Assembly (NCBI RefSeq): GCF_000830005.1
Contig: NZ_CP010408.1
Span: forward strand, 1-64,000
Direction: 5' to 3'
DNA: 64,000 nucleotides
DNA from: Streptomyces vietnamensis
GTDB taxonomy: Bacteria; Actinomycetota; Actinomycetes; Streptomycetales; Streptomycetaceae
Part shown: one piece after another, positions 483-58,323 of the stretch
How the letters are laid out: each line of letters opens with the position of its first letter
Position numbering within the stretch: position 1 is the first letter of the stretch
The notes under the pieces: generated by a model
Databases searched by the model: none
Told to the model about the DNA's origin: nothing
The model's input: only the letters and a program-made list of their open reading frames with translations
Translations under genes and position numbers: made by a program

Positions 483-633
483 CCTGATTCGGCTATCACT
501 CCGTCAAAATGGCTCACCAGCAACCCACTTCGAGCCCGGTTCACCCCCAGGTGGCGCACAGCTTCCGCGCGTACGCGTCCCCGGCCGGCTCCCCGAGCTC
601 ACGCAGTCGCCTCCGGGCGCAGCCAGCGGGCCT

Positions 634-28632: not shown

Positions 28633-28801
28633 GTTCAGCGATGGCTACCTCGTACGCGAAGCCTCGCCGCGGTGAGTGGCGGCGCCCCCAAGGTCCGGAT
28701 CGCCGCCGCGCTTGTGAACAGCGCGGAGGCACGCCCCGCACCTGGGAACGGCTCCTCGGCGCAGCCGCAGCAGTCATTCCGGAGGCGGACACCGAGCTCT
28801 A

Positions 28802-29927: not shown

Positions 29928-29985
29928 TAGTGCTTCGTTAGGTCTGCTGTCCGTGAGGTTGCGAATGGTGCCTAGGATGCGGGCC

Positions 29986-36437: not shown

Positions 36438-36842
36438 ATGGCTGGGCAGAAGGTGTGGGCGGCTGTCGCGGTGGTGTGCACCGTGGTGGTCATGGGACTG
36501 GTGCTCGTCGTGGTACTGGCGGACCTGGAGACGGCGGACAAGATCGCCAGCGTGGTGGGGGCCAGTGTGGGGGTAATCGGGCTGGCTGTGTCGGTGTTCG
36601 CGCTCACCCGCGGCGAGGACACTCCGCCCGTGGCCGGTACCCGGTCCGTGCAGGCCCGCGGTGGCATCGGGCGGGTGGTGACCGGCGACAACAACCACCT
36701 CACCACGCCTGCCCCCAGGCCCCAACCGCCAGCAGGCGCAGACGGCGGCGCGGGCGGCCTGGCCGTTCCCGGGGAACGCGGCGTGGCCGCGGACGGCAGT
36801 ATCGGCGAGGCCGTCACCGGCGACGGGAACCAGCAGCCGTGA
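36438..36842 (+). CDS. Two-helix membrane protein paired with the NB-ARC NTPase
   Basis: 134 aa. Two transmembrane segments (VWAAVAVVCTVVVMGLVLVV and IASVVGASVGVIGLAVSVFA) are followed by a soluble tail. The tail has two copies of a motif, ARGGIGRVVTGDNN and ERGVAADGSIGEAVTGDGN. The same motif opens the next protein (ERGLSAGGDIG, then IVTGDNNSI), so the two probably interact through it. Its stop overlaps the GTG start of the NTPase gene by 4 bp: they are translationally coupled. Predicted membrane partner of a STAND immune protein (inference). Confidence 0.7.
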   Translation: MAGQKVWAAVAVVCTVVVMGLVLVVVLADLETADKIASVVGASVGVIGLAVSVFALTRGEDTPPVAGTRSVQARGGIGRVVTGDNNHLTTPAPRPQPPAGADGGAGGLAVPGERGVAADGSIGEAVTGDGNQQP

Positions 36843-44544: not shown

Positions 44545-45045
44545 TCAGCAGTCGTCGCCGCTGGCGAGGAGCTTGACGATCCCGGTCTTCCGGGCCTCAA
44601 GGGCCGCGTGCATCCGGGTGGCCGCGGACGGCAGCAGGAGTTCATCCGCTTCGTCGGGACATGCCCACATGTGGTCTTCGAGTTCGTCGTCAGGCAGCGT
44701 GACCGAGGCGTCGGCGGGGACGGTGCCGGCGTCGAAGACGAGGTTGATCGCCGGGCCGTCGAGCCGTTCGCCGGGCGGGGACCAGGTGACGACCAGGATG
44801 CCGTGCATCGGTCGGTCGAGGCCGGTCTCCTCCAGCAGTTCCCGGCGGGCGCAGGTCTCGGGGTCCTCGCCCTGGTCGACGGTGCCGCCGGGGAACTGCC
44901 AGGCGTCGCGGTACTGGGGCTTGACGATGAGGACGCGGTCGAGTTCGTCGGTGACGAGGACGGCAGTGCCGGTGTACGCGCGGGTGAGGGTGGCGAGCCA
45001 CTGTTCGCGCGGGAGGAACGGGCGCGGCTGCTGCTTCGTGGGCAT
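44545..45045 (-). CDS. Nudix hydrolase
   Basis: 166 aa with a complete Nudix box at about residues 53-76: GGTVDQGEDPETCARRELLE followed by ETGL, i.e. G-x5-E-x7-REUxEExGU. N-terminal strands VLVTDELDRVLIVKPQYR are usual for the fold. It would hydrolyse a nucleoside-diphosphate derivative. Being next to NDP-sugar genes, a nucleotide sugar or a damaged nucleotide is a plausible substrate. A strong hairpin separates it from the MurG-like gene, so it is probably expressed separately or by read-through. Confidence 0.85.
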   Translation of the reverse strand: MPTKQQPRPFLPREQWLATLTRAYTGTAVLVTDELDRVLIVKPQYRDAWQFPGGTVDQGEDPETCARRELLEETGLDRPMHGILVVTWSPPGERLDGPAINLVFDAGTVPADASVTLPDDELEDHMWACPDEADELLLPSAATRMHAALEARKTGIVKLLASGDDC

Positions 45046-45070
45046 GTCGGCCCTTTCGGCTTAACGCGTA

Positions 45071-45098
45071 TGGCCCCTGCGGAAGCCCGCAGGGGCCA
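45071..45098 (-). terminator. Terminator of the biosynthetic operon B
   Basis: TGGCCCCTGCGG and CCGCAGGGGCCA form a perfect 12-bp stem around AAGC, 27 nt downstream of the MurG-like gene's stop. Confidence 0.75.
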
Positions 45099-45124
45099 CG
45101 TTCACGGCTGGGTCTGCCGTGAGG

Positions 45125-46285
45125 CTAGCGCGTCGGCCGTAGGGCTGTCGTAACGACGAGGTCAGCGAGGCGTTGCGCGGCGTCGGGCTGGCCGGCGGAG
45201 CGGGCCGAGCGGGCCATGCTCTGCCGGCGGGCGGGGTCCTTCAGGAGCGGAAGGAGCGCGTCGCGCAGTCCGTCGGGGGTGGCGGTGGCGTGGTCGAGGC
45301 AGAGGGCGGCTCCGGCGGTCTGGAGGGTCTGGGCGTTGCGGAGCTGTTCCTGGCCGGCGGTGGGGATGAGGGGGATGAGGATGGACGGTTTGCCGATGGC
45401 GGTGAGTTCGGCGAGGGTTCCGGCGCCGGATCGGGAGATGACGATGTCGGAGGCGGCGAGGATGTCGGCCAGGCCGTCGCTGACGTAGGGGACGAGCCGG
45501 TACCGGTGGGCGTGTTCGGGCGTGAGGCCGGCGGTCTGCTGCTTGATCTGGTCGTAGTGGGCCTCGCCGCACTGGTGAAGGATCTGGCAGTGCGGCAGAA
45601 GGTGGGGGAGGTTGTCGGTGATCAGGCGGTTGATCTGGGCGGAGCCCTGTGCGCCGCCGGTGACGTAGACGAGCGGGGTGTCCGGGTCGAGCTGGTGGGC
45701 GCGGTGGGTGGCAGCGGAGTCGCCGTCGAACAGGGCGGGGCGTACGGGGTTGCCGGTGACGACGGCCCGCTGCCTGGCCGCGGGCGGCAGGGAGTCGAGC
45801 GAGGTGGCGTGGCTGAGGGCGATGGCGGTGGCGCCGCGGGCGAGGATGCGGTTGGCCAGGCCGAGGGTGGTGATCTGCTCGTGCATGACGAGCGGTACGC
45901 CGACGATGCGGGCGGCCAGGCCGAGGGGGACGGCGACGTAGCCGCCGGTCGACATGACGACGTGCGGGCGGAAGCGACGGAGTTCGGCGACGGCCTGGCC
46001 GAGGCCGGCGGGGACCTTGGCCAGGTCGACGGTCGTGGTCGCAAGGGCCTTGAGGTTGAGGGAGCGGCGGACCTTGCCGGTGGCGATGGTGCGGAAGCAG
46101 ATGCCGGCCTCGGCGGCGACGCGGGCTTCGAGGCCGGTGGGGGTGCCGTACCAGGTGACGTCGAGGTCGGTGTCGCGGGCGGCGAGGTTGGTGCGGATGG
46201 TGTTGATGGTGGTGAGGGCGGGGTAGGTGTGGCCGCCGGTCCCGCCGCCGGTCACGGCCAGGCGGATCGTCGTGGTGCTGGTCAC
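45125..46285 (-). CDS. MurG-like glycosyltransferase (GT28)
   Basis: 386 aa. The GT-B fold of MurG is clear: N-terminal LAVTGGGTGGHTYPALT (glycine-rich loop), VVMSTGGYVAVPLGLAARI, HEQITTLGLANRIL, then the C-terminal donor-binding half with VYVTGGAQGSAQINRL and SRSGAGTLAELTAIGKPSIL. MurG adds GlcNAc from UDP-GlcNAc to lipid I. As the last gene of a biosynthetic-looking operon with sugar-nucleotide enzymes, this copy more likely glycosylates a secondary metabolite than peptidoglycan (inference). The preceding gene ends 42 bp upstream. Confidence 0.85.
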   Translation of the reverse strand: MTSTTTIRLAVTGGGTGGHTYPALTTINTIRTNLAARDTDLDVTWYGTPTGLEARVAAEAGICFRTIATGKVRRSLNLKALATTTVDLAKVPAGLGQAVAELRRFRPHVVMSTGGYVAVPLGLAARIVGVPLVMHEQITTLGLANRILARGATAIALSHATSLDSLPPAARQRAVVTGNPVRPALFDGDSAATHRAHQLDPDTPLVYVTGGAQGSAQINRLITDNLPHLLPHCQILHQCGEAHYDQIKQQTAGLTPEHAHRYRLVPYVSDGLADILAASDIVISRSGAGTLAELTAIGKPSILIPLIPTAGQEQLRNAQTLQTAGAALCLDHATATPDGLRDALLPLLKDPARRQSMARSARSAGQPDAAQRLADLVVTTALRPTR

Positions 46286-46327
46286 CGGGTGGGCTCCTTG
46301 TCGTCGTCGGGGCGAGGACCAGGGTGG

Positions 46328-47041
46328 TCAGGCCGCCGTGGTGGTGTCGCCGAGCAGGGCGCGCGCCCGGGTCAGGCTGTCGGGGTCTTTGATGGCCTCC
46401 CAGTAGGGGAGAACGACGGCGGTGCCGGGGGTGTTCTTGGCGAGCGCCATGTTGACGGCGGTCTCGTAGTCGCCGAAGGCGATCGTGTCGCGGCGGATGC
46501 GCCGGATGAGGGGGCGGCCGGCGAGGTGGTGGACCCAGATGTTGACCAGGCGGCCGGGCGGGCAGCCGCCGGGCGGGCGCTCGATGATGCCTTCGAGGTC
46601 GGTGGTGCCGGGGCGGAAGCCGAGCATGCCGCCGACGAAGGTGCGCTCGAGGACGGCGCTGGCGATGCTGATGCCGTGCTCGGGCAGGGCTTTGGCGACG
46701 AGGGTGTAGGCGTCGTCGGGGACGATGTCGGTGATGCCGCAGAGGAAGGCGCTCGTGCAGTCGGCGGGCAGCAGGCGCAGGCCGGTCGCGGCGGCGGCGT
46801 GGGCGTCGGGGCCGTCCTGGAGGACGACCTGGAACGGGGTGCCGTCGGCGACCTGGGCGGCGTGGTCGGCCACGGCGGCCTGGTTGTCTTCGTTGGTGAC
46901 GATGATGAAGGAGCGGGTGCCGGCGGCGCGGGCCTGGCGCATGTGCCGCTGCAGGAGGGTCTCGCCGGCGAGGACGAGGGTGGGCTTGTCCCGGCCCAGG
47001 CGGGTGCCGTGGCCGGCGGCGAGCAGTATGGCGGTGGTCAT
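46328..47041 (-). CDS. Sugar-1-phosphate nucleotidyltransferase-like protein
   Basis: 237 aa from the ATG at 47041, overlapping the aminotransferase stop by 4 bp (ATGA). It opens TAILLAAGHGTRLGRDKPTL, the nucleotide-binding signature (L-A-A-G-x-G-T-R-L-x-x-x-K-P) of NTP transferases. LCGITDIVPDDAYTLV supplies the metal-binding Asp, and a later INIWVHH-like strand follows. It probably activates a sugar phosphate as an NDP-sugar, the donor for the glycosyltransferase encoded next. MobA-like specificity cannot be excluded from sequence alone. Confidence 0.8.
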   Translation of the reverse strand: MTTAILLAAGHGTRLGRDKPTLVLAGETLLQRHMRQARAAGTRSFIIVTNEDNQAAVADHAAQVADGTPFQVVLQDGPDAHAAAATGLRLLPADCTSAFLCGITDIVPDDAYTLVAKALPEHGISIASAVLERTFVGGMLGFRPGTTDLEGIIERPPGGCPPGRLVNIWVHHLAGRPLIRRIRRDTIAFGDYETAVNMALAKNTPGTAVVLPYWEAIKDPDSLTRARALLGDTTTAA

Positions 47042-48150
47042 GAGGATGCTCCTTCGCTGAGGATGCCGAGCAGGACCTTGGTGACGCGGGTGGTGTCGTC
47101 CCGGCTGATGCCGGTGTGGAAGGGCAGGCACAGGGTGCGGCGCAGCAGCGCGCGCAGGCCCGGCAGGCTCGCGGCCTCGTACGGGGCGAGGGCGGGGTAG
47201 TCGGTCCAGGGGCGGGCGAACATGACGGCGGTGCCGATCTGTTCGCGGGCGAGCGCGGCCTGGACGGTGAGGGCGTCGTGGCCGTCGCCGAGGTCGACGC
47301 AGAACCGGCTCCAGGTGCTCCTCGGGCGCCGGCCGGGCGGCAGAAGGGCGGGGCGCTCGGCGAGCAGGGTGGTGGCGTAGGCGTCCGCGACCTGGGCGAG
47401 GGCGTCGGCGGTGGCGGTGCGCGCCTTCCACTGGTGGGTGGCCAGGAGGGCGTCGGTCTCGGAGAGGGTGCGGTTGCGCAGCAGGGTGTCGCCGAGTTCC
47501 CAGAGGTGTTCGACGCCGCTGTGCTTGCGGCGGTCGCGGATCTCCTGGGCGAGGGCGGTGTTCGCGGTGACGACGGCGCCGCCGGCGGTGGAGGAGATCG
47601 GTTTGGTCGGGGCGAAGGACCAGGTGGAGGCGTCGCCCCAGGTGCCGGGCCCGGTCGGGTCGGTGGGCAGGACGTAGGCGCAGTCCTCGATGACGGTGAC
47701 GCCGCGCTGCCACAGGGCGGCGATCGTGGTCTCGGCGTGGTCGGCGACGATGCCGCCGTGGTGGATCCAGATCACGATGGCGGAGCTGGGCACCTGGTTG
47801 GCGGCCGCGACGGTGGGGGCGAGGGTGGTGGGGTCGACGTCCATGGGGACGGGGGTGAAGCCGAGGCGGGCGGCCAGGGCCGGGATCGCCTGGAAGGCGT
47901 GCGCCGGCACGTGGACCTCGCGGTCCGGCTCGCGCAGCGTTTCGAGGACGAGTTCGAGGGCGTCCATGCCGGAGCCGACGACGATCGCCCGCCGGGCGAA
48001 GAAGCCGGCGAGTTCCATCTCCAGGCGGCTGGTGTGGACGCTGTCGCGGAGCAGGCCGCTGGCGACGGTGTGGGTCAGCTGCTGGGCGAGGCCGGCGGAC
48101 TGGGCGGGGTTGCCGGTGGGGGGCCGCCACAGCGGCGTCCAGCCGTTCAC
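47038..48150 (-). CDS. DegT/DnrJ/EryC1/StrS-family PLP aminotransferase
   Basis: 370 aa from a GTG that overlaps the stop of the WbqC gene by 4 bp. VGSGMDALELVLETLREPDR (PLP phosphate site), AHAFQAIPALAARLGFTPVP and MDVDPTTLAP, VIEDCAYVLPT (the Asp that contacts the pyridine N) and WSFAPTKPISSTAGGAVVT. The Lys in PTKPIS is the Schiff-base residue. These enzymes install amino groups on keto-sugars or cyclitols. The C-terminal ending (CLPFHTGISRDDTTRV) matches the family's CLPxHxxxxxxD motif. It implies an amino-sugar or aminocyclitol unit in the product. Confidence 0.9.
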   Translation of the reverse strand: MNGWTPLWRPPTGNPAQSAGLAQQLTHTVASGLLRDSVHTSRLEMELAGFFARRAIVVGSGMDALELVLETLREPDREVHVPAHAFQAIPALAARLGFTPVPMDVDPTTLAPTVAAANQVPSSAIVIWIHHGGIVADHAETTIAALWQRGVTVIEDCAYVLPTDPTGPGTWGDASTWSFAPTKPISSTAGGAVVTANTALAQEIRDRRKHSGVEHLWELGDTLLRNRTLSETDALLATHQWKARTATADALAQVADAYATTLLAERPALLPPGRRPRSTWSRFCVDLGDGHDALTVQAALAREQIGTAVMFARPWTDYPALAPYEAASLPGLRALLRRTLCLPFHTGISRDDTTRVTKVLLGILSEGASS

Positions 48151-48878
48151 GCGGCGACCGCCGGGGCCGGGGCGCGGCGAGCGACGCGGAGGGCGGGCAG
48201 GGAGTGGGGGCCGAGGTTCGCGATCAGGTCCAGGGTGCTGAGGTTGTCGAGCGTGCCCTGCGCGGGGTGCTGCTGGGGGTAGGCGGGCGGCTGGTAGTTC
48301 TGCCACTGGACGGCGATGCCGGCCTGTTCGAACAGGGTGGTGTTGAGGTAGCGGGTGCGCGATCCGTCGCCGGCGAGGTACGTCGTGGCGCCGACCTCGC
48401 GGCACAGCTCGACCAGGCGGGCCGTCTTCGCGGCGCGGGCCGGGCGAAGGCGGCTGGAGCGGATCGTGGGGGTGCGAATGTCGAGGACGCGGGCGAGTTC
48501 GGTGGAGCAGGCGAGGTTGAGGTCCGCCAGGGTCGGCCACGTCCGGGGGGCGTAGAGCAGGTTCAGCAGGTCGCTGCACAGGTCCCGGTGCGGGGCGCGG
48601 GCGTACGCCTGCTCGATCGTGGCCCGGTGCTTGTTCTGCCAGGGCAGGGTGTAGTCGAGGCGGGCCGCGGTGAGCCGTTCCTGCCGGCCGGTGTGGACGA
48701 CGGGGGCGGTCAGCAGGCGGCGCCCGTCGTGGGTCTTGATCCAGTTCCGGTTCTGCCAGCCGCCTCGGGTGAAGGCCGCGTCGTCGAGCCAGATGAACAG
48801 GTCCGCCTGGTCGAGCTTGTCCAGCAGCCCGGGGTACGGCAGGTAGTGCGGCTGGTGGATGGCCACGGTCAGGGCCAT
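48147..48878 (-). CDS. WbqC-family protein
   Basis: 243 aa; the ATG at 48878 lies within the end of the upstream gene (10-bp overlap). It starts VAIHQPHYLPYPGLLDKLDQ and ADLFIWLDDAAFTRGGWQNR then NWIKTHDG, the hallmark of WbqC proteins (xxQPxYlPwxGxf, d..q.skrswqnR..i). WbqC proteins accompany O-antigen and natural-product clusters and are suspected to attach amino-acyl or glycyl groups to sugars; the chemistry is not settled. Coupling to the DegT aminotransferase fits modification of an amino sugar. Confidence 0.85.
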   Translation of the reverse strand: MALTVAIHQPHYLPYPGLLDKLDQADLFIWLDDAAFTRGGWQNRNWIKTHDGRRLLTAPVVHTGRQERLTAARLDYTLPWQNKHRATIEQAYARAPHRDLCSDLLNLLYAPRTWPTLADLNLACSTELARVLDIRTPTIRSSRLRPARAAKTARLVELCREVGATTYLAGDGSRTRYLNTTLFEQAGIAVQWQNYQPPAYPQQHPAQGTLDNLSTLDLIANLGPHSLPALRVARRAPAPAVAA

Positions 48879-50017
48879 TTCGGACTCCTCTCGATGGTCT
48901 TCGCCAGATCGGCGGCCAGGGCCAGCGCGGCGGCGATCGTGGTGCCCATGTCGTCGTGGAACGTGCTGCCGCGGCCGGTGAACACGACACCGTCGGTGCG
49001 ACGGGCGCGGTAGGCGTCGGCGAGGCGCTGGTTGTCCGGTGTGCGCAGGACGAAGTCGATGGCGTTGGGGCCGTCGCCGTGGTGCTCGTAGCCGACGAGG
49101 ACCTTCTCGGTGGGGTTGGCCGGCTGGCCGGGCAGGTGCTCGGGGGTGTGGGCGCGGTAGTACGGGACGCCGGGGCCCGGGTAGGTGGTGGTGGCCGTGG
49201 CGGGGGCGGTGTGCCGGTCGGTCAGGCGCCAGTCGACGCAGATCCGGCCGCGTGCGAGCGTGCCCAGGTCGTGGTCGAACCAGGCGTCGATCGGGGTGGT
49301 GACGATGCAGGCGTGGGTGTACGGCGGCAGGTCGCGGACGGATGCCGCGTGGCGCCGCAGGACGGTGATGTCCCGGTTGTCGACGAGCCGGCCGAAGAAG
49401 TCCCCCCAGCCGTCGGCGGGAAAGCCCTGCCGGCCGACCGCCGACCGGAGACCGGCGGTGGGGGTGAAGCGGATCCCGAACCGGTCGGTGAACACCCCCG
49501 GCGCGAGCTGCTCTGGGCTGGTGCCCCACTGCTTGGTGATGTGCCCGCGGACGAACATCTCGTACAGGCGCGGCCCGAGCGCGGCGAGCGCCGCCTCCTG
49601 GGCGCTCGCCGGGGCCCGGCCGGTGCGGTGCGGTGCGACGTCCTGCTCGACGAGGACGCGGGCCGCCTCCGGGGTGAGGGAGGCGTCGCCGTAGCAGAGC
49701 CGGATGGCCTCCAGTCCGAGCGGCAGCGGCACCAGCTCGCCGCCGATGTCGGCGTACGCCCGCCGCTGGTGGCTGATCATCCGGGTCCGGCCGGCCACGT
49801 ACGTCCACACGTCCGGGTCGCTGGTCGCCAGGGTGTGCGTGCCGTACGGGTTGTACTGCACGCCGGTGTGCGGGCAGACGGTCGAGGCGCACAGGCCGCC
49901 GAGCCGGTCGGTGGCTTCCAGGACCATGACCCAGGCGCCGGGCAGCAGGGCCGTGAGCCGGTCCGCGGTCACGAGCCCGAACAGGCCGGCGCCGACGATG
50001 ACGACGTCGGGCCGCAT
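48869..50017 (-). CDS. UDP-galactopyranose-mutase-like flavoprotein
   Basis: 382 aa from the ATG at 50017 (TGATG overlap with the radical SAM gene). VVIVGAGLFGLVTADRL is a dinucleotide-binding Rossmann motif. GGLCASTVCPHTGVQYNPYG, THTLATSDPDVWTYV match the Glf pattern (GG.c......G....YG.H.fht....VW..v). TKQWGTSPEQLAPGVFTDRF and a C-terminal GRGSTFHDDMG are also as in the mutase family. These enzymes use reduced FAD to contract a hexopyranose to a furanose. A mutase or an FAD-linked oxidoreductase acting on an NDP-sugar is the best guess. Confidence 0.75.
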   Translation of the reverse strand: MRPDVVIVGAGLFGLVTADRLTALLPGAWVMVLEATDRLGGLCASTVCPHTGVQYNPYGTHTLATSDPDVWTYVAGRTRMISHQRRAYADIGGELVPLPLGLEAIRLCYGDASLTPEAARVLVEQDVAPHRTGRAPASAQEAALAALGPRLYEMFVRGHITKQWGTSPEQLAPGVFTDRFGIRFTPTAGLRSAVGRQGFPADGWGDFFGRLVDNRDITVLRRHAASVRDLPPYTHACIVTTPIDAWFDHDLGTLARGRICVDWRLTDRHTAPATATTTYPGPGVPYYRAHTPEHLPGQPANPTEKVLVGYEHHGDGPNAIDFVLRTPDNQRLADAYRARRTDGVVFTGRGSTFHDDMGTTIAAALALAADLAKTIERSPKWP

Positions 50018-51189
50018 CACAGGAACCACGCGTGCTGGGTCTCGAACTCCTCGGCACCGGGCGCCGCCAGGTCGCCGGCCTGCCAGGCGTCGATGGCCCG
50101 GGTCTGGTGGATATGGCGGCAGCCCATCCGGTAGCAGCCCGACAGGGCCATGTTGGAGATGAGCCGCTGTGCGACCTGCTGGTGCCGCTCGCTGCCCCAG
50201 ATGTCCTCGAGGTTGTTCTCCCGCAGGTCGCCGATGAGGTACTCGCTGCGGCCCCACTGCGGGCCGCAGGCGTACACCTCGCCGTTGGCCAGCACCCAGC
50301 AGTTGAACCCGGCGGCCACCGTCCAGCACCAGCGGTGCGCACCGTCGGCGCCCTTGGCGTGTTCGCCCAGGATGTGCCCGGCCTGTTCGCGCCAGGCCGG
50401 CAGGCCGCGTTCGTCGGCGAGGCGGAGCAGCAGTTCGCGGAACTCCTCGCGCTGACGGGTGTCGAGGACGAACGGCTCGCCGGTCTTCTCGTAGTCGTCG
50501 ACGAGCCGGATGTGGATGTTGTCGAAGCCGACGTGTTCGGCCCAGTCGTAGATCTGCTCCAGCCACCGGTAGTTCGTGGCGTTGATCAGGACTTTGGCGT
50601 TGACCTTCGGGGTGGTCAGGCCGGCGGCGTTGCGGGTGGCGATGATCGCGCGGGCCGCCTGCTCCATCGCGGTGTGCGAGCGGGTGTGGGCGACCTGCTC
50701 GTAGGTGTCGTCGTCGTAGGCGAAGACGGCGACCTCGATGAACGTCATCCGTTCGAGGACGTCCGGGCGGGCGAGCGGCATCCCCTTGATCAGGTTCGAC
50801 GCCATGCCGGCCCGGGTGGTGGCCAGCGGGAGGCGGGCGATGTAGTCGGCGATCTTCCCGCCGCGCCACTGGGTGGGCTCTCCCCCGCCGCAGTACTGCA
50901 CCCCGCGCACACCCATGGCGGTGATCGAGTCGTGGAGGCGGTCCATCATCTCGACCGGCATCGATGCGAAGCCGTAGGCGGCGTTGCGGTTCTTCGCGTA
51001 GCAGTGGTCGCACCGGGTGTTGCAGGCGAAGGTGGCGTACATCTCCAGCGACCACGGGGCGCTGCGGATCTTGATGCCGCGCTGGAGCGGGCCGGGTAAG
51101 AACGTGGCCTTGGCGGCGTGCAGGGCTTTGGTCGCGGAGGAGTACGGGCTGGGCTGGGCGGTGGTGGTGATCTGCTCGAACTCGGGCAT
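50017..51189 (-). CDS. Radical SAM enzyme 2
   Basis: 390 aa. The CxxxCxxC cluster motif is C56-NTR-C60-DH-C63, preceded by SLEMYATFA. GVQYCGGGEPTQW is the GGEP-type SAM-binding motif. Toward the C-terminus, WCWTVAAGFNCWVLANGEVY, ACGPQWGR and GCYRMGCRHIH give a SPASM/twitch-like set of Cys for an auxiliary cluster. It therefore resembles SPASM enzymes that modify peptides, sugars or cyclitols by H-atom abstraction. Start MPEFEQITTT is 19 bp after the first radical SAM gene's stop. It overlaps the flavoprotein gene start by one base. Confidence 0.85.
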   Translation of the reverse strand: MPEFEQITTTAQPSPYSSATKALHAAKATFLPGPLQRGIKIRSAPWSLEMYATFACNTRCDHCYAKNRNAAYGFASMPVEMMDRLHDSITAMGVRGVQYCGGGEPTQWRGGKIADYIARLPLATTRAGMASNLIKGMPLARPDVLERMTFIEVAVFAYDDDTYEQVAHTRSHTAMEQAARAIIATRNAAGLTTPKVNAKVLINATNYRWLEQIYDWAEHVGFDNIHIRLVDDYEKTGEPFVLDTRQREEFRELLLRLADERGLPAWREQAGHILGEHAKGADGAHRWCWTVAAGFNCWVLANGEVYACGPQWGRSEYLIGDLRENNLEDIWGSERHQQVAQRLISNMALSGCYRMGCRHIHQTRAIDAWQAGDLAAPGAEEFETQHAWFL

Positions 51190-51208
51190 GGTCGGCCTCC
51201 CGCGAGGT

Positions 51209-52420
51209 CTAGAAGAAGGAGCCGTGCGGCGCGGCGAACTCGGTGGCGAACTCCAGGAGCTGGTTCTGGTCGTGGTGCACGCAGAACGGGCAGTCCTTCA
51301 GCCGCAGCTCGGCCAGGACCCGGCGGCGCTGCTCGCCGCGCCAGATCTCCTCGAACGAGGAGTCGTAGATGTTGCCGATGACGCCGGCGATCCCGTCGCC
51401 GGCGTCGGTGCGGGTCCGCTTCTGCGCGCACAGGAAGACGTTGCCGTCGGCGCCGATGACCGGCTTGAACTGCTGCCAGTGGCAGCGGGTGTAGCCGCGG
51501 ACCTGGTGGACGGCGTTGTCGAAGATCCGCTTCACGATGTGGACGTCGAAGGTGTCGTCGTCCAGGTCGAGCGCCTCGCCGAGGCCGGCCAGCATCTTGG
51601 CGTGGAGGGCGGGCTCGATCGCGACGCCGGAGTACGACTTGTACTGGATGTAGTCGGCGCCCGCGTCCTTGACGAGCCGGCCGCACGCGACGAGGTCGTG
51701 GACGTTGTCGTCGTTGATGAAGTAGCCGGTGCCCACGGTGCAGGGGCCGTCCGCGGCGGCGAGCGCGCGCAGGTTCGCGATGATCCGGTGGTGGTCGTCG
51801 TTGCCGTGGAGGCGTGCGTGGAGGGCGGGGTCGGCGGCGTCGAAGCTGAACCGCACGTAGGTCGCGGCCTTCTTCAGCCGCTCCCCCAGCTCGGGGAAGA
51901 CCCGGGCGCCGTTGGTGACCAGGCCGACGGACATGCCGTGGCGGGCGGACCGCTCGATCGCGTCCACGGTCGCGGGGTGGGTCATCGGCTCGCCGCCGCC
52001 GACGTACAGCGCGGAGGTGACGCCGAGGCCAGCAAGTTCGTCGACCAGGTCCATCAGCCGGTCGGTGTCCATGCGTTCGCTGCGGCCCTTGGAGTGCAGC
52101 GAGGAGTAGATGCAGAAGCTGCAGTGGTGGTTGCAGGAGTTCGCTGGGTCGATCTCCACGCTCGTCGGGAACGGGTCCTGGCCCGCCGCGTACGCGCGGA
52201 TCGTGTCCTGCTGCTGGAGCAGCCGCAGCGGCTCGAACAGGTACCGGAACCGGTGCTGGCGCTCGATGGCGGCGTACCGGTAGCCGAGTTCCTCGGCCGG
52301 GGTGCGGGCGCCGGAGGTGAGCACGGCGACGTCCTCGTTGATGGTCGGCTTCGTCACGATCGGCAGCTGGCGCCGGGGACCGCGGGCGGGCGAGGCGTCG
52401 TGGTCGGGTGTGGTCGTCAC
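51209..52420 (-). CDS. Radical SAM enzyme 1
   Basis: 403 aa from a GTG at 52420 with AAGGGGG upstream. The cluster motif is C96-NHH-C100-SF-C103 (EIDPANSCNHHCSFC) and the SAM motif is LYVGGGEPMTHP. The last 120 residues carry Cys in YTRCHWQQFKPVIGADGNVF, LCAQKR and LKDCPFCVHHDQNQ, a SPASM-type auxiliary-cluster domain. It opens operon B, right after a terminator, so a promoter must lie in 52421-52595. Two different radical SAM enzymes in tandem suggest two oxidative or epimerising steps. Confidence 0.85.
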   Translation of the reverse strand: MTTTPDHDASPARGPRRQLPIVTKPTINEDVAVLTSGARTPAEELGYRYAAIERQHRFRYLFEPLRLLQQQDTIRAYAAGQDPFPTSVEIDPANSCNHHCSFCIYSSLHSKGRSERMDTDRLMDLVDELAGLGVTSALYVGGGEPMTHPATVDAIERSARHGMSVGLVTNGARVFPELGERLKKAATYVRFSFDAADPALHARLHGNDDHHRIIANLRALAAADGPCTVGTGYFINDDNVHDLVACGRLVKDAGADYIQYKSYSGVAIEPALHAKMLAGLGEALDLDDDTFDVHIVKRIFDNAVHQVRGYTRCHWQQFKPVIGADGNVFLCAQKRTRTDAGDGIAGVIGNIYDSSFEEIWRGEQRRRVLAELRLKDCPFCVHHDQNQLLEFATEFAAPHGSFF

Positions 52421-52595
52421 GGTCTGAACCCCCTTGGTGGGATGGATCGGAGTGACCTGCGATACGACGGTGCGAGCGCAGGGCAGACGGTGCTCCAGAG
52501 CGGCGGGCGCTCACAAGAGCACGTGGTACGAATCCGCCGGTCTTCCGGGTGCCAGGCCCGGGATCGGTCGGGAGGCGTCGCAGGCTTGGGGTGGT

Positions 52596-52625
52596 GGCCG
52601 GCCCGCCGTGGGGCGCGGGCCGGCC
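52596..52625 (-). terminator. Terminator of operon A
   Basis: GGCCGGCCCGC and GCGGGCCGGCC form a perfect 11-bp stem, 15 nt beyond the HPr-kinase-like stop. It divides the locus into two transcription units. The remaining 175 bp up to the radical SAM start hold no convincing gene. Confidence 0.75.
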
Positions 52626-52639
52626 GGTTCACAGGGGGG

Positions 52640-53746
52640 TCAAGCGCCGAGGCGGGCCACGGCTTCCTTGAGGACGGCGGCGTTCGCGGCGGCGTCGTGG
52701 TTCATGACGAGTCCCTGGTGCAGCAGGGCGTCGAGGTGCTCGGTCAGGAGGGTGCGGTCGCCGGGGGCGGGCAGCAGCCCGAAGATGTCGGGGTAGCGGT
52801 CCTCGGTCGTCTCGTCGAAGAAGTCGCCGGGCTGGACGCCGCGGTCGCTCTCGATGAGCCGGGGTTCGGCGCCGGCGGTGATCTGCGGGTAGAGGACGCC
52901 GACGGCGTGGCCTTCGGCGGCGAGCGGCATGGACAGCCACGAGGTGAGCTGGTCCGGCCACAGCTGGGGCTTGAGCTCCTTGCCGTTCGCCTTCCACAAC
53001 GGCTCGCGGCGGCCGGCGAGGAGGGCGTCGGTGACCTTCTGGTGCTGGGTGGGGTGCATCTGCTCGCCGGAGGCGAGCCGGGTGCGGACGACCTCGTACA
53101 GGTCGTGCGCCTCGAGGAGACCGAAGCCGTACGCCGCGGCGGACGGCCACGGCAGGACCCGCACCACACCGTGCTCGTCGACGCGGGCGAAGATCCGGTC
53201 GTTGGCCAGGAGCCGCCATCCGGCGCGGGCCAGGGCCAGGCTGGTGGTGGTCTTGCCCGCCCCCTTGTCCCCGAGGGTGAGGATCGTGGCGCCGTCGGCG
53301 CCGGTGACGGCGGAGGCGTGGAGGATGAACCAGCCGTCGGCAAGGAGATGGGCGCGCACGAGTTCACGGGCGAGACGGGCGGCGGCGGTGGCGAGGTCGG
53401 TCTCGTCGGTGCCGACGATCCGCAGCATGCGCAGGTTCTCGTCCCAGCGGTAGGCGAGCGAGCGGTCTTCCTGCACGGCGGTGACCATCTGACCGTCACG
53501 GACGACGAGCAGGTGGGCGCCGGCGTACTCGACTGTCTCCGCGTCGCCCTGCTCGACGGCCGCGGCCAGGGCCAGGAGCTTGGTCTCGTCGAGGTCGGCG
53601 AAGACGCTCGGTCCGTGGAGCTCGGTGGTGGGCTCGGCGTTCCACCAGCCGCCGAGGTAGCGCTGGGCCCAGGCGGGGACGGTGTCGGTCTGGCTGGCCA
53701 CGGTGACGGCCTGGCCGTCGGCGGTGGTGATGCGTACGGCACCCAT
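52640..53746 (-). CDS. HPr-kinase-like P-loop protein
   Basis: 368 aa. The middle has ILTLGDKGAGKTTTSLALAR, a Walker A motif of HPr serine kinase type, followed by GWRLLANDRIFARVDEHGVV (the DR motif after the P-loop helix). The N-terminal ~160 residues form a separate domain (LLVVRDGQMVTAVQEDRSLA). True HPr kinases act on the PTS protein HPr. Homologues in natural-product loci act on other hydroxyls, for example in lasso-peptide clusters. The substrate here is unknown. It is the last gene of operon A, 5 bp after the dehydrogenase. Confidence 0.75.
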   Translation of the reverse strand: MGAVRITTADGQAVTVASQTDTVPAWAQRYLGGWWNAEPTTELHGPSVFADLDETKLLALAAAVEQGDAETVEYAGAHLLVVRDGQMVTAVQEDRSLAYRWDENLRMLRIVGTDETDLATAAARLARELVRAHLLADGWFILHASAVTGADGATILTLGDKGAGKTTTSLALARAGWRLLANDRIFARVDEHGVVRVLPWPSAAAYGFGLLEAHDLYEVVRTRLASGEQMHPTQHQKVTDALLAGRREPLWKANGKELKPQLWPDQLTSWLSMPLAAEGHAVGVLYPQITAGAEPRLIESDRGVQPGDFFDETTEDRYPDIFGLLPAPGDRTLLTEHLDALLHQGLVMNHDAAANAAVLKEAVARLGA

Positions 53747-53751
53747 AAGGG

Positions 53752-54636
53752 TCAGATCTCCTTGCTGAGGCGGATATAGGCGGTGTGGAGCTTCTCCGTG
53801 GCCGCCGCGAGCTGGGCGGTCTCGGAGTCGTCGAGGGCCGGCGGACACATCGCCGGGGCCCCGTCGGTGTAGTGGACGGGCATCCCGAGCCAGACGCCCG
53901 TGTCCTGGCGGACGGAGACCTCGGTCAGCCCATCGGCGAGGCCGAGGGTGTGGACGAGGGCGTCCAGGACGGCCCCGGCGGGCCCGAGACGGGTGCGGCC
54001 GATGCCATCGCTGATCCGGCGGGGCCGGGCGGCGAGTTCGGTGCGCACCTGCTGCACGGGGACGGTGACGGGTGCTCCGTGGACAGTGGTGGTGGAGGCG
54101 CAGATCACGGCGCCGTCGCCGTGCTCGCCGATCACGTGCCCGCGGACCGCGCCGACGGGCACGCCGAGGTGGCGGGCGAGGGTGAGACGGTAGCGGGCGG
54201 TGTCGGTCGCCGCGCCGATCCCCACGACCCGCTCGCAGCCGGAACGCTCGGCGAAGATGCGAGCCAGCACATCGACGGGGTTGGTCACCATAACGGCGAC
54301 GCCGGTGTAGCCGGTGAGCTGCCGGGCCAAGTGGACGATCAGTGGCGCGTTGGCGATGAGGCCGGCCATCCGTACATCCCGACGGGCGGTGTTGGTGAAG
54401 GGGGCCCTCGGGGAGAGCACGATGGCGTCGCAGGAGCCCATGGCCTGCGGGGTGGTGAGCGTGACCCGCATGCAGGATCCGGTGACCTCGGTCAGGTCCT
54501 CCAGATCGGTGACGAGCCCGCGGGCGCTGGCCTGCGACCCGGAGGCGATGAGGAGCTCGGTGCACCAGCCGGCGGCGACGAGCAGCGCGCCGACGCTCTG
54601 GCCGACCGCTCCGGCTCCGATCAGTCCGATTCGCAT
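53752..54636 (-). CDS. L-lactate/malate dehydrogenase-like protein
   Basis: 294 aa from the ATG at 54636, overlapping the kinase-like gene by 16 bp. RIGLIGAGAVGQSVGALLVA is the NAD-binding Rossmann motif. VMVTNPVDVLARIF and TARYRLTLARHLGVPVGAVR, then GHVIGEHGDGAVICA keep the catalytic Arg and His (EHGD) of the LDH/MDH family. It should reduce or oxidise a 2-hydroxy acid with NAD(H). The family in a biosynthetic setting suggests making or removing a 2-oxo group on the precursor. Clearly divergent from housekeeping enzymes. Confidence 0.85.
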   Translation of the reverse strand: MRIGLIGAGAVGQSVGALLVAAGWCTELLIASGSQASARGLVTDLEDLTEVTGSCMRVTLTTPQAMGSCDAIVLSPRAPFTNTARRDVRMAGLIANAPLIVHLARQLTGYTGVAVMVTNPVDVLARIFAERSGCERVVGIGAATDTARYRLTLARHLGVPVGAVRGHVIGEHGDGAVICASTTTVHGAPVTVPVQQVRTELAARPRRISDGIGRTRLGPAGAVLDALVHTLGLADGLTEVSVRQDTGVWLGMPVHYTDGAPAMCPPALDDSETAQLAAATEKLHTAYIRLSKEI

Positions 54637-55772
54637 GCGGCTACCGCCTCTCGTACGCGGGTCATATACAGGCGCCACCAGGTCGCCCCGTCCTCGGTCG
54701 CCGCGAGCTGGGCCGTGGCGCGGTCCAAAAGGTCCGCGACGTGGCGGGCGCGGTCTCTCACTGCGGCCGCGTGCGCGGACAGCGGCAGGCCGGCGGGGGC
54801 GGTGAGGTAGGTGGACAGGATGTTGAGGGTGTCCATGAGGACCAGGAGCACGAGTTCGCCCAGCCAGGCCGCTCGTTCCTGCGCGGGCAGGCGCCGGGCG
54901 GACGCCCGGACGAACGAGTCGATTCCGCTCAGGGCTACGGCTGCGGCGGCCGGACGGTGTGCGATCAGCCCGAGCGTCAGGCGCGAGACGAGCTTGGCGG
55001 TGTCCGCGACCGCGTGACCGTGCATCAGCCCCGGGTCGAGGTAGACCGGTCGGCCGTGATCCTCGGGGAAGGTGGCGTGTTCCGGCTTGAGGTCGCCGAA
55101 GACGACCGTCCGCCCAGACGCGGGAGGGATCCGGCGGGTCCGGCGCAGGCGGGCGACCACCGGGTCGAGGACTTCGCCGTGCCCGGTCTGGCGCAGGTAG
55201 ATCCCGCCGCTCAGCCCGTTGAACTTCCGGCTGAATGTCCCGCCGATGCCGCGCTCGCGGATCGGCGCGCTCTCCACGGCCTCGGTGACGCCCTCCCGGG
55301 CGAGCCCTTCGGCGAGGTCCCGCACGATCGTCCCGAGCAGCTCCCGGGTGCGGCCGGGCTCGGCCTCGATCAGGTCCGCGAGCGTCGGGCCCGGCACCGG
55401 CTCGGTGAACAGGACCCCGCGGTCGTATCCGGCGAGCGCCACCGTCCCGAGCCCGGCGGGGCCGGCCAGGGCACGCAGTTGAGCAGCCTCGCGGGCCATG
55501 AGCGAGTCGGGCGAGAGTAGATAGGCCGCCTGCCGGGCGCGTACGGTCTCAAAGTCCCCGCAAGTGCCGCGCAGCAGCGACACCAGGGAGACCCCGCAGA
55601 CCGAGGTCTTCGCGTACAGGTCGCGGCCGTCGACGGTGATCAGCTGTACGTAGCTGGTGACGCTGGGCGTCACCTGGCCCGGGACCACCTCGGCGCCCGG
55701 CCACGCGGACCGCGCGGCGGTGAGGACCTGGTCGCCCGCCATCGCGAGCACGTCGGCCGCCGCCGGGGGCAT
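54621..55772 (-). CDS. APH-fold kinase-like protein
   Basis: 383 aa from the ATG at 55772 (TGATG overlap with the upstream gene). A protein-kinase-like fold: N-lobe strands (SYVQLITVDGRDLYAKTSVC, with Lys in AKT), a Glu-bearing segment, VPGPTLADLIEAEPGRTREL, then the catalytic loop VVFGDLKPEHATF and the metal-binding YLDPGLMHG (H/F-G-D-L-K-P-E-H and D-P-G in place of HGDxxxxN and DFD). It may phosphorylate a small molecule, like aminoglycoside or choline kinases. The altered active site leaves room for a non-kinase role. Confidence 0.7.
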   Translation of the reverse strand: MPPAAADVLAMAGDQVLTAARSAWPGAEVVPGQVTPSVTSYVQLITVDGRDLYAKTSVCGVSLVSLLRGTCGDFETVRARQAAYLLSPDSLMAREAAQLRALAGPAGLGTVALAGYDRGVLFTEPVPGPTLADLIEAEPGRTRELLGTIVRDLAEGLAREGVTEAVESAPIRERGIGGTFSRKFNGLSGGIYLRQTGHGEVLDPVVARLRRTRRIPPASGRTVVFGDLKPEHATFPEDHGRPVYLDPGLMHGHAVADTAKLVSRLTLGLIAHRPAAAAVALSGIDSFVRASARRLPAQERAAWLGELVLLVLMDTLNILSTYLTAPAGLPLSAHAAAVRDRARHVADLLDRATAQLAATEDGATWWRLYMTRVREAVAACESD

Positions 55773-56257
55773 CACGCGGACCACCCGCTCGCGACGGCAG
55801 CTGCAGGGCTCGTCATGCCGGAGAGGGGCCGGGGCCGGCGGCAGACGCACGCGGCCGCGGGCATCGCGGCCAGGGTGTAGAGGATGTGCCCGGGGCCGGT
55901 GACGCACACGACCTCCGGGACGTAGGCGCGGCGGGTGAGCCGGTCCGCGAGGTCCTCGAGCCCGAGCCGGTCCTCGGCCCAGCGGCGCAGGGTGGTCCCC
56001 GGGAAGGGACGGACGTCGTCGGGGTCGTCGTCGAGCCGGTCGGCGAGGTGCTCGGCCACCGCCGTCAGGCACCGCACGGCACCCCACGGGGACGGGGCCG
56101 TGTCGCAGGACAGCAGCCAGGTGTACGGGGCGAGCGGGGTCCCGGCCCACGCCTCGCAGTGGATTTCGGCCGTACCGCCTACGTGTCGGCCGTAGCGCGG
56201 CGCGCTGGGGGCTCCGGGCGAGGGGGCGTGTAACTCGCTGCGGTCGGCACCGGTCAC
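55772..56257 (-). CDS. Hypothetical protein of operon A
   Basis: 161 aa from a GTG at 56257 that overlaps the upstream stop by 4 bp. The middle (YTWLLSCDTAPSPWGAVRCL, then AVAEHLADRLDDDPDDVRPF and PGTTLRRWAEDRLGLEDLAD) is conserved-looking and helical; the C-terminus contains VVCVTGPGHILYTL. No family recognised. Tight coupling on both sides argues it belongs to the pathway. Confidence 0.55.
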   Translation of the reverse strand: MTGADRSELHAPSPGAPSAPRYGRHVGGTAEIHCEAWAGTPLAPYTWLLSCDTAPSPWGAVRCLTAVAEHLADRLDDDPDDVRPFPGTTLRRWAEDRLGLEDLADRLTRRAYVPEVVCVTGPGHILYTLAAMPAAACVCRRPRPLSGMTSPAAAVASGWSA

Positions 56258-56745
56258 GAGTTCACCTCGCACCAGATCCGCTTGCCGGTGGAGACCCGCT
56301 CGATGCCCCACCGGTCGGCCAGGGCGGCGACGAGGAACAGTCCGCGGCCGGCTTCCTCGTCGTTGCTCGGGGCAGTCGGCACGGACATCTCGGCGCGGTC
56401 GGTGTCCAGCGCCATGAGGCGGACGGTGGTCTCGTCGGTACGGGTGACGACCACGCTGACGGTGCGCGAGTCCGTGTGGATGACGGCGTTGGTGACCAGC
56501 TCTGAGATCAGGAGTTCGGCCGTGTCGATCAGGTGTTCCAGGCCCCAGGTCGTAAGCGTGCGCGCGACATCGCGCCGCGCCTGGCCGGGGGCGGTGTCAC
56601 GAGCGGTGTACTTGGCGAGATAGCCCGGCGGGTCCGCGGGGGCCGGGGTGAAGGGGTTCAGCATGCCGCCTCCTCTCGTGACGTAGATGGGCTGTGGGGC
56701 GCGCCGGCCGACCGGCGGAACGGGGGCAATCAGCGTGCTCGTCAC
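56254..56745 (-). CDS. HATPase_c regulator (anti-sigma-like kinase)
   Basis: 163 aa from a GTG at 56745; an internal ATG at 56664 is an alternative. The GHKL ATPase motifs are visible: LLISELVTNAVIHTDSRTVS (N box), LMALDTDRAEMSVPT (G1 DxxxG-like) and EEAGRGLFLVAALADRWGIE (G2). Such small ATP-binding proteins accompany XRE/DUF5753 plus DUF397 pairs in Streptomyces WhiJ-type loci, exactly as here with the divergent pair at 57272. It is the second gene of operon A and probably regulatory. Confidence 0.85.
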   Translation of the reverse strand: MTSTLIAPVPPVGRRAPQPIYVTRGGGMLNPFTPAPADPPGYLAKYTARDTAPGQARRDVARTLTTWGLEHLIDTAELLISELVTNAVIHTDSRTVSVVVTRTDETTVRLMALDTDRAEMSVPTAPSNDEEAGRGLFLVAALADRWGIERVSTGKRIWCEVNS

Positions 56746-56921
56746 GTGGCAGCACCTTCCGTGTGGCGGGGGGTGGGGGTGCTGAACAGGTCGAGGTACA
56801 GGTCGCAGGTGTCCTCGCTCCAGTCGGCGACCGGGCCGTGCGAGGCGCAGAAGGCACGGGCCGGAGCGTGGGGGCGTGCGGGGGTGTGCTCGCAGGGGGT
56901 GCTGCTGGGGATCGTCTTCAC
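56742..56921 (-). CDS. Small Cys-containing protein, first gene of operon A
   Basis: 59 aa, GTG start at 56921 with GAGG eight bases upstream. It reads VKTIPSSTPCEHTPARPHA, ARAFCASHGPVADWSEDTCD and LYLDLFSTP. Three Cys and several His (C-x-H ... C-x-x-H) could bind zinc. The stop overlaps the GTG of the ATP-binding gene by 4 bp (GTGA), the coupling that supports a real gene despite its size. Function unknown; likely regulatory. Confidence 0.6.
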   Translation of the reverse strand: MKTIPSSTPCEHTPARPHAPARAFCASHGPVADWSEDTCDLYLDLFSTPTPRHTEGAAT

Positions 56922-57271
56922 GTCGGCCTCGGCAATCCGGTGGATGAGGGCGGAACTTGAAGGGATGGATGGCGGCCCCGGTCTCCGACGGGGGCGGAGG
57001 TCAGAGCCGCCGTGCCGGGCCCATGCTCAAAGCCCGGCCGAACTGGAGGCTCACCGACTAAACGCCGCTAGGTGATCACGAATTGACGGATAGTCATGTC
57101 GCCATGAGAGCTAGAGTGCACCTCAACCCACCGGGTGCGCAACAGGCGCACCTACCCGAATTCCTGTCCACCCTCGACGCAACAACCCGGCGCGGGCACA
57201 ATGCGACCCAAGCGCGGGATGCACGCACCCACAGGTGACACGACGTCACCAGCAAGGGAGAAGGGGGAGTA
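56922..57271. promoter_or_regulatory. Divergent control region of the WhiJ-type locus
   Basis: 350 bp between operon A and the XRE/DUF5753 gene. It must hold both promoters. TTGACG at 57083 and GTCATGTCGCCATGAGAG downstream are the most promoter-like bases, but spacing is poor and I make no firm call. GGGAGAAGGGGG precedes the regulator start. Confidence 0.45.
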
Positions 57272-58135
57272 ATGCCGAACCAGAGAGCCAGGCCCACCCT
57301 GCGGCGTCGCCGCCTCGGAGAGCAGCTGGCGGCCAGACGCGACGAGGCCGGCCTCAGCCTCGAGGACGCCGCCGCGCTCATGGGCTGGGACAAGCCCACC
57401 ATGTCGAAGATCGAGAACGCACGACGACACATCTCCACCAAGGAGGTCGAGGACCTCCTTGGCCATTACGGCGTCACCGACCATGCGTTCATAGGAGCTA
57501 TGTCAGCCCTCGCCCGCGACGCCGGCAAGAAGGGCTGGTGGGCAGGATTCGGCACCCTCGGCGACTCGTACCAGGACCTGCTGAGCGTGGACACCGACGC
57601 AGAGGCCGTGCGCTTCTTCTCGCCGAACCTGATCCCCGGGCTGCTCCAGCGCGGTGCCTACGCCCGACAGGTCATCAACGCCTCCGCGATCACCCGAACC
57701 GACGAGGACAAGGACGCGCTCTCCCGCCTCCGGCTGGCCCGGCAGTCCGTGCTCGAACGCTCCCCGAACCCGCTACGCCTGTGGGCGGTGATCGGCGAGG
57801 CCGCCCTTCATCAGAGGTTCCCCGACCACACTGCGATGCGCGATCAGCTCGCGTACCTGCTGGAGGTCTCCACCCGCAAGGGCATCACGGTCCAGGTGAT
57901 GCCGCTCGACTGCGGCGGGCATCCGGGCCTGGCCGGGATGTTCAGCATCGTCAGCTTTCCCTCGCCGTGGCCCACCGTCGTCAACCTGGAGAACCTGCGC
58001 GGCGGCACCTTCGTGGAAGGGACCAACGACGTGACGATCTTCGAAGAAGCCTTCGAGCAGATCGTCGCCACCGCGCAGTCACCAGACGAATCGCGCGAGA
58101 CCATCAAGAAAATCATGGAGGAGAAGCACTCATGA
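57272..58135 (+). CDS. XRE-family regulator with DUF5753 (WhiJ-like)
   Basis: 287 aa with GAAGGGGGAG before the ATG. HTH at residues ~14-70 (LGEQLAARRDEAGLSLEDAA, ALMGWDKPTMSKIENARRHI). DUF5753 ligand-type domain from ~100 (EAVRFFSPNLIPGLLQRGAY, ARQVINA; EAALHQRF; ITVQVMPLDCGGHPGLAGMF; VVNLENLRGGTFVE). These proteins work with a small DUF397 partner, encoded next with an ATGA overlap, to control development or antibiotic genes. Divergence from the biosynthetic operon makes it the likely pathway regulator. Confidence 0.9.
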   Translation: MPNQRARPTLRRRRLGEQLAARRDEAGLSLEDAAALMGWDKPTMSKIENARRHISTKEVEDLLGHYGVTDHAFIGAMSALARDAGKKGWWAGFGTLGDSYQDLLSVDTDAEAVRFFSPNLIPGLLQRGAYARQVINASAITRTDEDKDALSRLRLARQSVLERSPNPLRLWAVIGEAALHQRFPDHTAMRDQLAYLLEVSTRKGITVQVMPLDCGGHPGLAGMFSIVSFPSPWPTVVNLENLRGGTFVEGTNDVTIFEEAFEQIVATAQSPDESRETIKKIMEEKHS

Positions 58136-58323
58136 CCGCCCCCGACAGCCCGGCCTGGTTCAAGTCCTCATACAGCGCCGGCGAGCAGGACTGCGTCGAG
58201 GTCGCGAACATGCCGGGCGTCCTGTACGTCCGAGACTCGAAGGACAAGACCGGCCAGACCCTTTCATTCGGGCCGGCGGAGTTCTCCGCGTTCGTCGAAT
58301 ACGCCTCGACGCTGGAGATCTGA
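58132..58323 (+). CDS. DUF397 protein
   Basis: 63 aa. PAWFKSSYSAGEQDCVEVAN, then VLYVRDSKDKTGQTLSFGPA and EFSAFVEYAS: the complete DUF397 pattern (W.kSsyS...g.nCVEva....v.vRDSk.p.g..l.f....W..F). The ATG overlaps the regulator's stop. DUF397 proteins partner XRE/DUF5753 regulators; they are thought to antagonise them. Confidence 0.9.
   Translation: MTAPDSPAWFKSSYSAGEQDCVEVANMPGVLYVRDSKDKTGQTLSFGPAEFSAFVEYASTLEI

Follow-up and report, generated by a model that had tools for sequence, protein, structure and literature searches.

Two independently conserved gene modules stand in tandem on a probable linear plasmid of Streptomyces vietnamensis

The window analysed here is the stretch formed by bases 1-64000 of contig C2 (NZ_CP010408.1; 286,635 bp) in the two-contig genome of Streptomyces vietnamensis. 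About 45-58 kb from the left end of C2 it contains a locus made up, as comparison with related genomes shows, of two modules that are conserved independently of each other and follow one another on the same strand of a probable linear plasmid. Module A (56745-52640, minus strand) encodes an ATPase, a small protein, and a trio consisting of an APH-like kinase, an LDH-like (lactate dehydrogenase-like) dehydrogenase and a protein that we call 'HprK-like'. Module B (52420-45125) holds seven genes in the order rsam1-rsam2-ugm-wbqC-degT-NTP-murG. Coding regions were assigned from GC-frame and codon scores, and the features of the locus are as follows.

58132..58323, plus strand: DUF397 protein (Pfam, 70 bits), overlapping the WhiJ stop
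57272..58135, plus strand, divergent from module A: WhiJ-type regulator (HTH_31 and DUF5753; Pfam)
56254..56745, minus strand: HATPase_c_2 (anti-sigma-like) protein (Pfam); start at 56745 or 56664
55772..56257, minus strand: 161-aa protein without a Pfam match, family unknown
54621..55772, minus strand: APH-fold kinase (aph); GDLKPxH and DPxL invariant in 11/11 aligned sequences
53752..54636, minus strand: LDH/MDH-like dehydrogenase (ldh); Pfam Ldh_1_N/C, PDB matches to LDH/MDH
52640..53746, minus strand: PEPCK/HprK-superfamily phosphotransferase ('HprK-like'; hprK)
52596-52625, minus strand: perfect 11-bp hairpin at the end of module A, directly after hprK
51209..52420, minus strand: SPASM radical SAM enzyme 1 (rsam1); Pfam
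50017..51189, minus strand: SPASM radical SAM enzyme 2 (rsam2); Pfam SPASM
48869..50017, minus strand: UGM-like flavoenzyme (ugm); Pfam GLF
48147..48878, minus strand: WbqC-family protein (wbqC); Pfam PF08889, 193.7 bits against a gathering threshold of 21.3; HQPH motif
47038..48150, minus strand: DegT-family (sugar) aminotransferase (degT); Pfam, 143 bits
46328..47041, minus strand: MobA-like nucleotidyltransferase (NTP); Pfam, 51.5 bits
45125..46285, minus strand: second MurG-like protein (murG); GT28 N and C domains
45071-45098, minus strand: perfect 12-bp hairpin at the end of module B, directly after murG
44545..45045, minus strand: Nudix hydrolase (Pfam), beyond the second hairpin

Most families named in an initial annotation of this DNA were found by Pfam at the places it had given: radical SAM/SPASM twice, GLF/UGM, WbqC, DegT, MobA-like, GT28/MurG, Ldh_1, Nudix, and DUF5753 with HTH; HATPase and DUF397 are Pfam matches as well. 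Two of its labels hold by a less direct route. The APH-like protein itself has no Pfam match, but its homologue in locus L028 matches PF01636; the HprK-like protein gives weak sequence matches, with 24.8-24.9 bits for HprK_rel_A/B where the cut-off is 200, but is supported by structure. The description of two minus-strand units, each closed by a perfect hairpin, was also confirmed, except that the Nudix gene falls outside the second unit, after its hairpin, and the WhiJ and DUF397 genes are on the plus strand, divergent from the rest. Both hairpin-holding stretches fold better than 200 of 200 shuffles, and the stretch after the Nudix gene folds no better than shuffles (z 0.52); a terminator scan requiring a T-tract reported neither hairpin. 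Overlaps at nearly every junction had been claimed as well, and this did not hold: an overlap of at least 4 bp occurs at just 5 of 12 junctions (4, 16, 10, 4 and 4 bp), the others being two 1-bp overlaps, which alternative GTG starts could turn into 4 bp, and five gaps (5, 219, 19, 42 and 79 bp). The 219-bp gap and hairpin that separate the two units coincide with the evolutionary boundary between modules A and B. The tie of the Nudix gene to module B is loose, the copy in L040 being on the other strand and 36% identical.

The conservation of module B was followed from its first gene. The CxxxCxxC motif of rsam1 (C96/C100/C103) is invariant in 22 of 22 aligned sequences, along with further Cys and His residues, and the family is compact: among the best 120 of 631 matches, 84 are 44-100% identical (some of them fragments) and the next stands at 33%. 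Named homologues among the matches listed include those of Streptomyces filamentosus, S. hydrogenans, S. pseudovenezuelae, S. acidiscabies and several Kitasatospora. When 84,980 species genomes were scanned with two peptide patterns, 11 loci were confirmed: L040-L046, at 46-80% identity, and the remote L047-L050. The whole order rsam1-rsam2-ugm-wbqC-degT-NTP-murG is kept in L040 (Streptomyces NBC_00620), L041 and L042 (Microbispora). Other relatives carry less: L043, from a Rhodobacter metagenome-assembled genome (MAG), has rsam1-rsam2-GT28-PIG-L-wbqC-degT, with ugm and NTP not recognised; L044, a 3.8-kb contig of Parvularcula, has rsam1-rsam2 and the start of a GT28 gene; L045 (Acidobacteria) has rsam1, NTP and PIG-L without rsam2; and L046 (Saprospiraceae) has rsam1 only. 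Loss of synteny in every other strain had been named beforehand as the mark of a chance assembly, and what we found is that all three further actinobacterial loci keep the gene order of the window. By gene content and order, the seven genes of module B form a set that is conserved in two actinobacterial orders and occurs in reduced form in other phyla.

Within Streptomyces the set is rare. Among 392 Streptomyces genomes, rsam1 (E<=1e-30) was found in the genome of S. vietnamensis itself and as one 29% relative in an unrelated cluster, and among 394 Streptomycetaceae genomes, a sample overlapping the first, its own genome alone was found at E<=1e-60. No Streptomyces plasmid record matched rsam1 at E<=1e-20, the single matching plasmid record being from Azospirillum (30%). 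The 29% relative (in genome G420) and the Azospirillum match were rejected as family members on their contexts, which are other clusters.

Module A has a different distribution. By tblastn the LDH-like protein was found in 24 of 72,556 plasmid records, 22 from Streptomyces and two from Listeria (one of the latter 28.6% identical; four of the 24 records are not among the matches listed), and in 32 of the 392 Streptomyces genomes, its own included, at E<=1e-30, in 35 places of which 30 are given as loci. These 30, the window's own locus among them, and 10 of the 24 plasmid records made up a comparison set of 40 loci, in which a trio gene was counted as recognised at tblastn E<=1e-4, partial matches included. 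The trio is complete in 37 of the 40, and ldh and hprK are present in all 40; aph was not recognisable by tblastn in L053, L069 and L080. At least one trio gene has a partial or displaced match in L071, L072, L077 and L079, and the contig of L074 stops inside hprK. Gene calling overlooked ldh in two loci (L087 and L089) and aph in two more (L082 and L096); the counts come from tblastn instead. Distances of the three proteins correlate strongly (r 0.81-0.86 over 11 loci; 0 of 2000 permutations as high), which is the expectation for a unit moving together. Neighbours of the trio recur too: WhiJ, DUF397 and ATPase genes also adjoin it in L033 and L091, an ATPase homologue is called upstream of it in several loci, and a 62% homologue of the 161-aa protein lies upstream of it in L052/L081. 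The latter is genome G344, which has the nearest LDH relative in the 392-genome sample (78%); it carries the trio as well as the 161-aa gene and is absent from the list of rsam1 matches in that sample. An assignment of the 161-aa protein to DUF6415 was dropped, there being no Pfam match. In L031, a plasmid of S. coelicoflavus, the trio is flanked by genes annotated as of gamma-butyrolactone type (ScbR and ScbA families). From these comparisons module A emerges as a portable cassette, conserved independently of module B.

The three proteins of the cassette could be characterised further. The LDH-like protein has the active-site residues of the L-lactate/malate dehydrogenase superfamily (Arg, Asp-Arg, His): R89, D145, R148 and H172, invariant in 11 of 11 aligned sequences, which we take to be R109, D168, R171 and H195 of the superfamily. 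At the substrate-discriminating position it has N82, neither Gln nor Arg, and it falls below the L-lactate dehydrogenase equivalog (109.1 bits against the TIGR01771 cut-off of 303.55). The HprK-like protein likewise falls below the HPr kinase/phosphorylase profile (TIGR00679, 12.7 bits against 240). Structure prediction, proposed in the initial annotation as a check, was informative here: the predicted model matches ATP-PEP carboxykinase (PEPCK) along its whole length and has the fold of the PEPCK/HprK superfamily with a P-loop, a His before it and an Asp after it. As modelled, the protein is a member of that superfamily, a placement settled by structure. Neither trio kinase was matched by PADLOC. 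More HprK-related proteins occur in other Streptomyces clusters, L014 (G023) and L018 (G025), where no LDH-like partner was recognised.

What follows the trio was compared in 34 gene-called contexts, the window included, which overlap with the 40-locus set and two of which lack a called ldh. An FxLD-type methyltransferase gene stands downstream of the trio in L033, L084, L085, L086 and L088, of which L084-L086 look like a single locus in three genomes and L088 has four called genes between hprK and the methyltransferase. The profile scores are 541 bits in L085 and 491 bits in L088, and in L085 an FxLD lanthipeptide precursor (58.9 bits) is present along with a LanC-like protein and a lantibiotic dehydratase. 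In G023, L025, L027 and L091 the trio precedes a radical SAM gene and a PCMT-type methyltransferase, in G035 a radical SAM gene, and in the window module B; downstream genes in G023, L084 and L086 were assigned by similarity alone. In the remaining contexts with a called ldh neither an FxLD, a radical SAM nor a module B system was recognised after the trio. Perhaps, then, module A acts on peptides, the APH- and HprK-type kinases phosphorylating a ribosomal peptide and the LDH-like enzyme reducing an N-terminal 2-oxoacyl group, with the genes for the ribosomally synthesised and post-translationally modified peptide (RiPP) lost or replaced by module B here. The FxLD-type and PCMT-type neighbours speak for this. 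Nevertheless, the many contexts with no recognised peptide system downstream, the lack of a small ORF common to trio loci just upstream of module A, and the full-length resemblance of the HprK-like model to PEPCK make it unlikely. A RiPP precursor within the window locus was rejected for the same lack of a shared small ORF upstream of aph.

A further question is whether the two modules belong to one pathway. The initial annotation had read the locus as a single conjugate pathway, built on a hydroxy-acid or peptide-like precursor; in its integrated form the trio would supply a phosphorylated hydroxy-acid (or enol-phosphate) to be conjugated by the sugar genes of module B. The modules do share a strand, with a sole junction of 219 bp. 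Relatives of module B also have dehydrogenases of other kinds immediately upstream of rsam1: in L043 an aldo-keto reductase, of which L044 has a 54% homologue, and in L041 and, judged by eye, L042 a Gfo/Idh protein. In S. filamentosus the same longest contig, 139345, is listed for the rsam1 homologue (93%) and for the hprK homologue (88%), so that this strain, the sole other one, probably links modules A and B. In S. hydrogenans, however, the listed contigs differ (300457 for rsam1; 112046, 13705 and 507478 for the hprK homologues), which speaks against linkage there. The trio was found in 0 of the 7 module-B-family loci (L040-L046; flanks fetched up to 10 kb, L044 being 3.8 kb in all), and rsam1 was not beside the trio in the 33 other gene-called contexts (two without a called ldh), where the trio stands without module B, alone or before FxLD lanthipeptide genes. 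A hairpin, moreover, separates the modules. Because they are separate in the relatives examined, bar the one inferred strain, a single pathway is not our leading explanation, and we regard it as quite improbable. The hydroxy-acid precursor is likewise unsupported; a sugar-nucleotide, MurG-style conjugate remains the best reading of the 3' unit, but the dehydrogenase, APH-like and HprK-like genes form a separate cassette.

The best overall explanation, to which we assign a probability of roughly 0.55, is two modules with separate chemistries. Module B is predicted most likely to make an amino-acylated amino-sugar that is transferred by the MurG paralogue. A sugar-1-phosphate would be nucleotidylated by the MobA-like NTP transferase, for which no PDB relative was found at 1e-3, or a UDP-GlcNAc-type sugar nucleotide would be taken from the pool. 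DegT, whose nearest structures include TlmJ, WbpE and ArnB, would add an amino group following an oxidation, in Microbispora perhaps by the UDP-GlcNAc-3-dehydrogenase-like enzyme whose gene immediately precedes module B. Where PIG-L is present, as in the versions from proteobacteria and acidobacteria, it may free an amine. WbqC would then activate an amino acid as adenylate and form an amide on the amino-sugar. Compared by VIA-align, its model has a predicted HUP/nucleotidyltransferase-type fold; a Foldseek search with the model gave no significant match. The HUP superfamily is marked by an HxGH-like motif after strand 1. The tentative HUP reading is thus founded on the VIA-align comparison together with HQPH, and these two features suggest an adenylate-forming ligase. 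A second WbqC-family branch in Streptomyces (L109-L112) has HQPN in place of HQPH. Both SPASM radical SAM enzymes, with the UGM-like flavoenzyme, would remodel the sugar or acyl part; the two are paralogous (BLASTP 23% over 346; hhalign 99.2%), and the Radical_SAM score of rsam2, 28.1 bits, is slightly under the cut-off of 29.5. Finally, the MurG paralogue would move the sugar onto polyprenyl-PP or a similar acceptor. Module A, for its part, would carry out an NADP(H)-linked interconversion of 2-oxo and 2-hydroxy acids and phosphorylation by its two phosphotransferases, giving a small phosphorylated metabolite that might be signal, precursor or protection for whatever lies downstream.

The product of module B need not be secreted. 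The second MurG might instead build an altered amino-sugar into a lipid-linked glycan, lipid II or another, modifying the producer's envelope for self-protection or as a surface coating. Like MurG, the MurG-like protein has GT28 N and C domains, and it misses the murG equivalog by only 4 bits (246.1 against the TIGR01133 cut-off of 250.25); it is a second copy, encoded on the plasmid contig beside radical SAM and amino-sugar genes, and the other contig holds the canonical MurG (288.2 bits). Enzymes of the WbqC, DegT and UGM kinds are characteristic of surface-polysaccharide loci, which counts for such a role, as does the broad spread of the family across phyla. Pairs of radical SAM enzymes, on the other hand, are unusual in such loci, and there is no transporter or flippase among the module B genes by Pfam. 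The occurrence of WbqC in surface-polysaccharide loci is noted in the literature (PMC5532660), but the very patchy distribution among the 392 Streptomyces genomes again argues the other way. On balance we consider an envelope role rather doubtful. A joint reading that goes further than our preferred two-module explanation is equally tentative: module B would represent a new multi-phylum pathway class, for a natural product or cofactor, in which an amino-sugar, aminoacylated by WbqC as an undescribed adenylate-forming ligase, is remodelled by the two SPASM radical SAM paralogues and the mutase-like flavoenzyme and loaded by a dedicated second MurG on lipid-PP, and module A would be a plug-in making a PEPCK-like-derived phosphorylated hydroxy- or enol-acid for unrelated pathways.

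The replicon itself deserves mention. Window positions 73-509 have an inverted match (81% over 444 bp) at the opposite end of C2, and because its ends match in this way C2 is most likely a linear plasmid. Two inverted copies of a DDE_3 transposase element, 99.8% identical, lie at 28795-29943 in the window and at 65867-67016 of C2, outside it; the whole locus is therefore inside a bounded segment of 36 kb. Elsewhere in the window, positions 21097-24591 encode a protein of 1164 aa that combines trypsin-like and STAND-NTPase-like regions with numerous TPR repeats; its TPR DNA is a tandem array with copies 84-92% similar, and it has a weak PADLOC match to Avs1b (16 bits). An 853-aa NB-ARC and TPR protein (36839-39400) has similar TPR repeat DNA likewise (85-89%), and a TnpB-like gene (OrfB_IS605 / Cas12f1-like_TNB) lies at 14881-16275.

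The main interest of the locus lies in three points. Module B is a rare gene set whose order is conserved across phyla, with members in Streptomyces, Microbispora and alphaproteobacterial MAGs, and for which our literature searches showed no described product; the hypothesis on WbqC offers concrete, testable enzymology for its family; and the portable PEPCK-like/LDH-like/APH-like cassette, found before different biosynthetic operons, might serve natural-product plasmids of Streptomyces as an accessory of general use.

The literature searches made here showed no described pathway with this gene set, in agreement with the initial annotation. For module A we count HPr kinase/phosphorylase and the HprK-type lasso-peptide kinases among the closest known systems. 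FxLD lanthipeptide systems (TIGR04363/TIGR04364) have module A as upstream neighbour in five contexts, but no FxLD precursor, methyltransferase, dehydratase or LanC was found among the module genes scanned in the window. A link through APH-like kinases to the class V lanthipeptides of decRiPPter is unsupported, because the main text of that report (PMC7794033) contains none of the terms 'lactate dehydrogenase', 'HPr' and 'kinase'. In module B, the UGM-like protein resembles Glf in its full-length alignment, with a phmmer match of 3.5e-40 to the UGM structure 1v0j over residues 2-367, and in conserving the GxGLxGL FAD motif, QW and the Arg of PYxR. It differs in scoring 97.8 bits against the TIGR00031 equivalog cut-off of 303.75, and in its family all 15 aligned members have Ala in place of the second His of GxHxFHT. 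The Arg of LPVRY is present in 5 of 15 aligned members, the window copy included, and in both outgroup rows, being Q, T, S or C elsewhere, and R288 is invariant in 17 of 17; presumably these two correspond to the diphosphate-binding R174 and R280 of the Klebsiella enzyme. Since the window copy retains both arginines, an exclusion of UDP-galactose as substrate was dropped. The WbqC family has been called functionally uncharacterised (PMC5532660). The closest parallel to the chemistry proposed for module B is the Wbp/Vim linking-sugar pathway of Porphyromonas and Tannerella (PMC7468200). It differs in using VimA, a putative N-acetyltransferase, and VimE, of carbohydrate esterase 4 family; WbqC has 0 occurrences in that text, and its relevant passages name no radical SAM enzyme, UGM-like protein or second MurG. 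That pathway aminates a GlcNAc-type sugar nucleotide at C-3, removes the acetyl group from C-2 and joins an amino acid to the freed amine (PMC7468200), so that it resembles the proposed module B in its C-3 amine, its deacetylation and its amino acid attachment.

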